A stretch of 64,000 bases of DNA. Source: Ordospora colligata OC4. Taxonomy: Eukaryota; Microsporidia; Ordosporidae. Positions within the stretch are counted from its first letter, which is position 1, and the number at the start of each line of letters is the position of its first letter. A model generated the notes under the pieces. It was not told where the DNA came from. It saw only the letters and a list, made by a program, of their open reading frames with translations, and did not search any database. Positions 27,001 through 28,366 of this stretch are shown piece by piece. The translations under genes and the position numbers were made by a program. The stretch is from the NCBI RefSeq assembly GCF_000803265.1, contig NW_014575396.1, forward strand, positions 62,001 to 126,000, given 5' to 3'.

Positions 27001-27112
27001 ACACCCCTGGACACTCAGGTCGATAAGCACGAGTCTTTTGCCTTTTACTAAAGACTCCCATGATCTGAGAAACGTCCCACACAAATCTTTGGACTGCCGA
27101 TCACTCGGCTTA
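27001..27112 (+). ncRNA. U5: U5 spliceosomal snRNA
   Basis: The invariant loop I is present: TGCCTTTTACT at 27039-27049, closed by a perfect 8-bp stem GAGTCTTT (27031-27038) with AAAGACTC (27050-27057). A lower stem pairs CTCAGGTC (27015-27022) with GATCTGAG (27062-27069, one G-U), and GGAC (27009-27012) with GTCC (27074-27077). An Sm-site-like AATCTTTGG follows at 27084-27092, then the 3' hairpin GCCGA (27096-27100) with TCGGC (27105-27109). Loop I aligns exon ends in the spliceosome. The ends are estimated. SF3B1 at 30.2 kb agrees with a working spliceosome. Confidence 0.93.
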
Positions 27113-27157: not shown

Positions 27158-28129
27158 TCACACTTCCTTCGCAAGCCTTTTCTTCTGTCTTTCCACATAA
27201 TTCTGATAGTTCAGTATTATCCTGTTGACTATATGCTCTGCAGACAAGTAGTTAAACTTGTTCTCTGCATAGCTGTGCTGTACAATCTCCCTGATCGCAT
27301 CATACCTTGAAAGATCCTTAGAGTCAAACGAAGGCGCAACCACATCAATCCCATGAGTGGCAACAAAGTCTCGGTCAATGCAATATGGAGAAATAACAAT
27401 CTCATCAACATACTTACAAGACATCAGCGTAAGCATCCTCTCCTTCAGGTTCATAACAGGATTGCTCTTCGTATACTCCTTTGTTGTCTCATTGTCGTGA
27501 AGTCCCACCACCAAGTAATCTCCCATCATCCTTGCTATCCTCAATGACACAACATGTCCTGCATGGAACAAATCAAAATTACCATCAATAAAAACAACCT
27601 TCCCTTTCCTTTCCCTCTTCATGTCTGCTTCAAGCAATCCCAATAACTCATCATGATAGTCTGTGTGTTCCTGCCCACTTTTATTCAATGTAAGTTGCCC
27701 TCCTCCCATATTGAGCAGCATTCTTCCAACCAACTCTGTAGTAGATATCCCTATAGTTCTCTCCACCTCCCTAAACATTCCTATGTCTCTAACCTGATGA
27801 TACGAGTCTTGGTTATTGGAGTCAAGAACTATGTCATTCCCATGGCAAACTATATCAACTCCGTACTTCTTCATCATGCTCAGCTGTGTAACAAAAGGCA
27901 CATCCTTTGCCACCTCATCGACATACCTGCATCCCTCAAGCATCTCATACCTTTCATCATTGTTCATCACAGGAAGCCCTTTCTCCTTGCAGATGCTCTC
28001 TGACGAATGTACACCTGCTATCAGGTATTCTCCAAGCTTCCTTGACTGATACAGCGCATTCACATGTCCATAGTGGAACACATCAAAACATCCATCGGTC
28101 CACACTACCTTCCTTGCTCGAGATGACAT
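27158..28129 (-). CDS. CTP:phosphoethanolamine cytidylyltransferase
   Basis: 323 residues. Two tandem cytidylyltransferase domains, as in the PCYT2/ECT1 family: residues about 7-140 with WTDGCFDVFHYGH, and about 175-310 with FIDGNFDLFHAGH. Only ECT enzymes have the duplication; choline enzymes have one domain. It makes CDP-ethanolamine for the phosphotransferase at the start of the window. The ATG at 28129 follows CCCC by six bases. The frame is open further upstream through a hydrophobic stretch, but that would run into the MRP-type RNA gene, so I reject the longer start. Confidence 0.94.
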   Translation of the reverse strand: MSSRARKVVWTDGCFDVFHYGHVNALYQSRKLGEYLIAGVHSSESICKEKGLPVMNNDERYEMLEGCRYVDEVAKDVPFVTQLSMMKKYGVDIVCHGNDIVLDSNNQDSYHQVRDIGMFREVERTIGISTTELVGRMLLNMGGGQLTLNKSGQEHTDYHDELLGLLEADMKRERKGKVVFIDGNFDLFHAGHVVSLRIARMMGDYLVVGLHDNETTKEYTKSNPVMNLKERMLTLMSCKYVDEIVISPYCIDRDFVATHGIDVVAPSFDSKDLSRYDAIREIVQHSYAENKFNYLSAEHIVNRIILNYQNYVERQKKRLAKEV

Positions 28130-28176
28130 ACAACAGGGGCTGCAAAGCAATAAAATCAAACAACAAATTACAATTA

Positions 28177-28345
28177 AAATGATGAGCATCTAAGAGTAAG
28201 CCTCATTCCGTTCAGTAGACCCATACCTAACAGCATTAATCTATTCAAATGATAAACACACCAATTAAGGCTGCCTTTCAGCTGCTTCCGAGGACTTTCC
28301 ATGGAGTGTCTCCACTCCAACGCTGTTCTTCAGATGCTCATGGGC
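28177..28345 (-). ncRNA. RNase MRP RNA (RNase P RNA as alternative)
   Basis: Read on the minus strand. P1: a perfect 10-bp helix, ATGAGCATCT (28341-28332) with AGATGCTCAT (28191-28182). P2: AACAGC (28327-28322) with GCTGTT (28234-28229). Between P2 and CR-I lies a hairpin GGAGTG-GAGA-CACTCC (28318-28303), a reduced P3. CR-I is GGAAAGTCCTCGG (28300-28288), like the GAAAGTCCCCGG of vertebrate MRP RNA. Next comes hairpin GCTG-AAAGG-CAGC (28282-28270), overlapping a GARAR-type motif (GAAAG) as in MRP P8. A T4 run follows P1 and a TATAAA lies about 20 bases upstream. About 165 nt, short for the family. It would process pre-rRNA. End points approximate. Confidence 0.72.
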
Positions 28346-28360
28346 TTGGCATCTTTTGCA

Positions 28361-28366
28361 TTTATA
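28361..28366 (-). promoter_or_regulatory. TATA box of the MRP-type RNA gene
   Basis: TATAAA on the minus strand, 20 to 25 bases before the first base of the P1 helix, the spacing expected of an upstream polymerase III TATA element. The divergent MetRS gene begins 120 bases further on. Confidence 0.45.

Follow-up and report, generated by a model that had tools for sequence, protein, structure and literature searches.

A highly probable, compact RNase MRP RNA gene in the microsporidian Ordospora colligata

RNase MRP helps to mature ribosomal RNA (rRNA). Ordospora colligata (Microsporidia) is a tiny-genomed parasite of water fleas, and the stretch of its DNA analysed here (the window) comprises 64,000 nucleotides of strain OC4 (contig NW_014575396.1, positions 62,001 to 126,000 of the forward strand), to which positions without a contig label refer. 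In a 357-bp space with the MetRS gene on one side and the ethanolamine-phosphate cytidylyltransferase gene on the other, the minus strand at 28341-28176 very likely carries the RNase MRP RNA gene of this organism. An initial annotation of the same DNA had proposed this identity, and we consider it to be right. The RNA is 160 nt long when measured between the outer ends of P1, and 166 nt when a following run of four T residues (T4) is included; the mature RNA would be about 160-165 nt long, with both ends predicted.

Assignment to the RNase MRP family

The Rfam RNase_MRP model (RF00030) matches positions 28340-28184 from end to end (model positions 1-266 of 266) with 42.6 bits and an E-value of 5.6e-11 in the 451 bases scanned, 157 nt being aligned with 266 model positions. 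CR-I, CR-V, P1, P2, the proximal part of P3 and P8 are common to the locus and the model consensus, whereas three segments of the model (33, 16 and 72 positions) shrink here to 6, 8 and 6 nt, respectively. Throughout the genome (2,279,121 bases in 13 contigs) this locus is the sole reported match to RF00030 (E 6.8e-11; 10 of 10 first-look candidates scored), and a DNA search of the genome with the locus returned one match, itself, and no second copy. No other family of its clan scores as high as RF00030 at this position. The RNaseP_nuc model (RF00009), searched at E<=1, reports only a separate locus on contig C8, with 103.7 bits, so that the RNase P RNA of the genome is accounted for. When the two models were run on 14 control genomes, each responded in one genome and neither exceeded its cut-off.

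Core helices and small hairpins

The architecture expected of an RNase MRP RNA is present on the minus strand (Table 1). P1 and P2 enclose the core. P1 had been described as a perfect helix of 10 bp; its outer ten pairs are indeed Watson-Crick, but the helix is longer and continues through one G.U and one A-U pair to 12 contiguous pairs, while the 6-bp P2 and the MRP-like CR-I of the same description were found as stated. CR-I pairs with CR-V in the P4 pseudoknot, in which all seven pairs form around a bulged U. The Rfam model leaves P4 unpaired, and P4 therefore provides independent support for the assignment. All 16 modelled pairs of P1 and P2 are intact, one of them as G.U, and ten are double changes relative to the Rfam consensus (7 of 10 in P1 and 3 of 6 in P2), with one further double change in P4; these counts set one sequence against the printed consensus, with P1 and P2 aligned in knowledge of the structure, a comparison that is weaker than cross-species covariation and is not a phylogenetic covariation test. 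Searches for the DNA of relatives suited to covariation yielded none: a pattern scan of viral contigs gave no matches, a scan of the viral contigs in which the cytidylyltransferase served as query found a single locus (44% identical), which carries four tRNAs but otherwise no Rfam match at the gathering score, and none of the 18 stretches of genome contigs that fitted the pattern was confirmed.

Table 1. Features of the RNase MRP RNA locus in 5' to 3' order of the minus strand, and the RNase P RNA of the same genome
Feature	Position	Strand	Basis
TATAAA, putative promoter TATA box	28361..28366	-	sequence; function inferred
RNase MRP RNA gene (P1 to T4), very likely	28176..28341	-	RF00030 match; single DNA match in genome
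P1 5' strand AUGAGCAUCUGA	28330..28341	-	12 contiguous pairs with 28182-28193
P2 5' strand AACAGC	28322..28327	-	6 pairs with 28229-28234
P3, single 7-bp hairpin, GAGA loop	28302..28319	-	fold alone -10.6 kcal/mol
CR-I GGAAAGUCCUCGGA, holding P4 5' strand AAG(U)CCUC at 28297-28290	28287..28300	-	Rfam alignment
P8 hairpin GCUG-AAAGG-CAGC containing GARAR	28270..28282	-	sequence; local folding not significant
Alternative 12-pair AU/GU-rich hairpin covering CR-IV	28235..28265	-	folding
CR-IV AGAUUAAU, directly before P2 3' strand	28235..28242	-	sequence; register versus PMC13184271
P2 3' strand GCUGUU	28229..28234	-	6 pairs with 28322-28327
CR-V GAACGGAAUGAGGCUUACUC, holding P4 3' strand GAGGCUU at 28204-28198	28194..28213	-	Rfam alignment
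P1 3' strand UUAGAUGCUCAU	28182..28193	-	pairs with 28330-28341
TTTT, putative RNA polymerase III terminator	28176..28179	-	sequence; function inferred
RNase P RNA	C8:84363-84597 (locus L002:1501-1735)	-	RF00009, 103.7 bits, 235 nt

The stretch 28342-28178 as a whole folds with a z-score of -3.68, and none of 200 shuffled sequences folded as well. P3 taken alone has the same z-score (1 of 200 shuffles as good); it is one hairpin with a GAGA loop, as had been noted, but with a stem of 7 rather than 6 bp. The bipartite P3, the form that binds Rpp20/Rpp25, is not seen in this RNA, and microsporidia are stated to have a single-hairpin P3, so that the bipartite form is not demanded of their members of the family. 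The GARAR motif is represented by GAAAG (28279-28275) inside the P8 hairpin, in agreement with the earlier remark that a hairpin overlaps such a motif. Folded by itself, 28289-28270 is no more stable than expected by chance (z -0.65, with 42 of 200 shuffled sequences folding as well). A 4-bp P8 stem closes on the first G of GAAAG and leaves an AAAGG loop, whereas Rfam and the local fold favour a GCU/GGC stem with a GAAA loop. A P19-like stem at 28227-28214 was rejected as unsupported (28228-28206 by itself has z +1.06, and 171 of 200 shuffled sequences fold as well).

Several observations weigh against the assignment to RNase MRP. The score of 42.6 bits lies below the Rfam gathering score of 50 for RF00030, and a scan of the whole window at the gathering score returned the U5 RNA alone, with the MRP locus unlisted. 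One other family of the clan also matches across this locus, with a score lower than that of RF00030 by a margin that the scan did not show, and the RNase P scan scored 15 of its 93 candidates. The unconstrained minimum-energy fold is without P2 and P4 and pairs across CR-IV; when P1, P2, P3 and P8 are forced, the energy is -45.1 compared with -53.4 kcal/mol, a cost of about 8 kcal/mol, although such a gap can happen where a pseudoknot and proteins hold an RNA core. No clear P5 adjoins P4: the 3-bp options contain two G.U pairs when started from 28289, the first base after P4, and one when started from 28288, and the only all-Watson-Crick option (28287-28285/28269-28267) lies two bases later and may simply extend P8. 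The register of the P8 pentaloop is ambiguous, an open GARAR pentaloop being present in neither of the two likely hairpins. CR-IV is non-canonical, and searches of the genome with the Rpp20 and Alba/Rpp25 Pfam profiles gave no first-look candidates; both points are taken up below.

The gathering score is a curation cut-off and not a biological trait, and the shortfall of the locus probably stems from absent parts, namely the three shortened model segments. The initial annotation had named the lack of a covariance-model hit above threshold as a result that would speak against it, and read literally at the gathering score this is the result obtained; it is nevertheless outweighed by a match that spans the whole model at an E-value of 5.6e-11 and by the model-independent P4. 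A P/MRP pseudogene, or a divergent extra copy of the RNase P RNA, would fit both the low score and the P-like spacing of CR-IV, but at this locus MRP outscores the rest of the clan, RF00009 reports the C8 locus only (within the candidates scored), CR-I and CR-V fit the MRP consensus and GARAR is present. The pairs of P1, P2 and P4 are all retained, unlike those of a decaying copy, and a second copy was not found; we regard such an origin as very improbable. RNase P identity, a pseudogene and chance were each considered and rejected, and with high confidence the locus is read, from its sequence, as a functional-looking, single-copy MRP RNA gene.

Flanking signals and neighbouring genes

TATAAA is located 20-25 nt upstream of P1, where the initial annotation had placed it, and T4 follows two bases downstream of P1 rather than directly after it. 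Among 20,000 single-base shuffles of the flanks, TATAAA turned up in its 26-nt slot in 2.8%, T4 in its 10-nt slot in 3.9%, and the two together in 0.13%, a rough control in that the slots were picked afterwards. Transcription by RNA polymerase III is probable from these signals.

The cytidylyltransferase gene occupies 27158-28129 on the minus strand, and its frame is open further upstream through 28130-28189 to an ATG at 28189 within P1; automatic gene calls could overlap the MRP RNA gene through this extension. The location between two protein genes and the frame running into P1 would also fit a chance fold or a structure in the untranslated region of the adjoining gene. Against this stand the genome-wide E-value for RF00030 and the O. 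pajunii cytidylyltransferase relative (P0004, 323 aa), which equals in length the protein starting at 28129 and matches it with 100% coverage and 88% identity, so that the 20-residue extension is unsupported; a chance or untranslated-region origin is accordingly given almost no weight. A U5 spliceosomal RNA lies at 27007-27111 on the plus strand (60.6 bits; cut-off 40), convergent with the cytidylyltransferase gene, and the Encephalitozoon cuniculi relative of the latter is named 'U5 ASSOCIATED snRNP', possibly a misnaming. Matches to mir-4178 (18.1 bits; cut-off 90) and, within the MetRS gene, to SNORD94 (25.9 bits; cut-off 60) were taken as chance.

Protein subunits, CR-IV and comparison with known RNAs

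Profile searches over the Pfam cut-offs detected Pop1, one Pop5/Rpp14-type protein, two Rpp30-type proteins, Rpp29 (barely over its cut-off, 27.8 versus 27) and one Rpr2-type protein. The Pop1 histidine described as the +4 anchor (human His146, yeast His103; PMC13184271) aligns with a histidine at about residue 63, in stretches that match weakly (i-Evalues 0.026 and 0.21). The lack of candidates for Rpp20 and Rpp25 serves as a lead only, given that a diverged protein may be missed in a fast-evolving lineage; of 14 control genomes, none of them microsporidian, two gave an Alba match above the cut-off and one an Rpp20 match below it. Both the P and the MRP RNA of the genome have a P3 consisting of a single hairpin, and in yeast Pop6/Pop7 bind P3 and help to engage Pop1 (PMC7351766). 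Given these two RNAs, the missing profile matches and the role of Pop6/Pop7, it would be coherent to suppose that the bipartite P3 and the two proteins that bind it were lost together.

The two Rpp30/Rpp1-type genes are adjacent (C9:124493-125871, plus strand; locus L009:1477-2945) and their products are 37% identical to each other. A search with the first returned 11 proteins, among them Encephalitozoon relatives and an O. colligata protein that is 100% identical over 95% of the query, and a search with the second returned two proteins, from O. colligata (identity 100%, query coverage 98%) and O. pajunii only. Neither search returned the other copy at its 37% identity, so that relatives this distant escape such searches, and a restriction of the second copy to Ordospora is therefore not established. 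In a structure search this copy matched human p30 (E 2.2e-4) and yeast Rpp1 (E 0.22); designed Pizza proteins, which made up most of the 24 rows, were discounted as chance. Yeast RNase MRP contains two copies of one Rpp1 (PMC7351766), and by analogy the two Rpp1 positions may be split between two genes in O. colligata.

PMC13184271 gives CR-IV a length of 6 nt in MRP, called rigorous, as against 8 nt in RNase P, and counts it among three MRP-specific RNA traits, the other two being the GARAR pentaloop and a P5 adjoining P4; its main text nowhere contains the string 'microspor'. In O. colligata only the 8-nt register (AGNNNNAU) retains A1, G2 and A7 of CR-IV, whereas the 6-nt register AUUAAU, which is ungapped in the Rfam alignment, loses G2 and has A rather than U at N6. 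One possible, though less than even, reading is that of an MRP RNA with a rebuilt substrate anchor, in which an RNase P-like CR-IV of 8 nt would give a -2 anchor and a substrate choice differing from those of known MRP; it is a variant of the explanation proposed below and not its opposite. AGAUUAAU adjoins the P2 3' strand and reads as AGNNNNAU with A at position 6, and the conserved bases are kept in the very register whose length is assigned to RNase P. The 8-nt CR-IV nevertheless rests on one sequence, the Rfam alignment uses the 6-nt register, and P2 could extend by two pairs (G.U and U-A), leaving AGAUUA, 6 nt. The bases of CR-IV can instead pair in the alternative hairpin 28265-28235 (-6.5 kcal/mol, z -2.47; equally good folds in 3 of 200 shuffled sequences), and the motif AnAGUnA is described as variable, and as unrecognizable in some taxa (PMC1796607).

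For the RNase MRP identity preferred here, the RNA architecture, the failure to find a second copy, the separate RNase P RNA and the genes for five shared subunit types are at hand, and we infer transcription, protein assembly, cleavage and substrate as follows. RNA polymerase III would transcribe the gene from a TATA-containing upstream promoter and stop at T4. The RNA would fold into P1/P2 and the P4 pseudoknot, bearing the catalytic core, together with a minimal P3 hairpin, the P8 hairpin and scarcely any further specificity domain. Assembly with Pop1, Pop5, Rpp30, Rpp29 and perhaps an Rpr2/Snm1-type protein would produce an enzyme cutting pre-rRNA in single-stranded stretches. An exact match to ACACACCGCCCGTC, an rRNA pattern, is absent from the genome, and nothing is concluded from this absence.

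A further step, which we advance only as speculation, would be a minimal MRP in which the P3/Rpp20-Rpp25 module has been shed from both P and MRP, the specificity domain is nearly gone and CR-IV is of the 8-nt RNase P type. If this were true, the -2 anchor, which has been called invariant in MRP, would not be universal, and the specificity that separates MRP from P would fall to P8, Pop1 and other elements. Three points are of specialist interest, namely the register of CR-IV, the combined reduction of P3, Rpp20 and Rpp25, and the adjacent Rpp30 pair. Should an 8-nt CR-IV and the combined loss of the bipartite P3 and Rpp20/Rpp25 hold in relatives, they would contradict the statement of a rigorous six-nucleotide CR-IV in all MRP RNAs and offer a naturally minimal setting in which to study how MRP differs from P. 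The locus itself supplies one of the RNA genes of a reduced eukaryotic genome and illustrates on how little RNA an MRP enzyme may be able to operate.

The length of 160 nt from P1 to P1 is equal to that of the Nosema (Antonospora) locustae MRP RNA, reportedly given as 160 nt by Piccinelli et al. in 2005. The RNase MRP RNAs of N. locustae and E. cuniculi have been named as the shortest, and P3b and P6 are absent from microsporidian MRP RNAs (PMC1796607). The suggestion of the initial annotation that this RNA is among the most compact is thus correct but not new, compactness of MRP RNA being already known for microsporidia. No literature pairing Ordospora with RNase MRP was found among the papers searched, and annotation elsewhere is possible. 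P10 is described as present throughout all MRP RNAs characterized at the time (PMC1796607); here, in contrast, just 13 nt separate P8 from the Rfam-aligned UUUAUCAU, a distance too short for a P10, except if the AU-rich hairpin should itself represent it. The RNase P RNA of O. colligata shares with its MRP RNA the core layout and a single-hairpin P3 (of 8 bp in the RNase P RNA), and the match to its gene is preceded by ATAAAT at a distance of 27-32 nt and followed four bases downstream by TTTT. Unlike the MRP RNA, it carries a P-type CR-I (GGGAAGGUCUGAGA) and a larger specificity domain.
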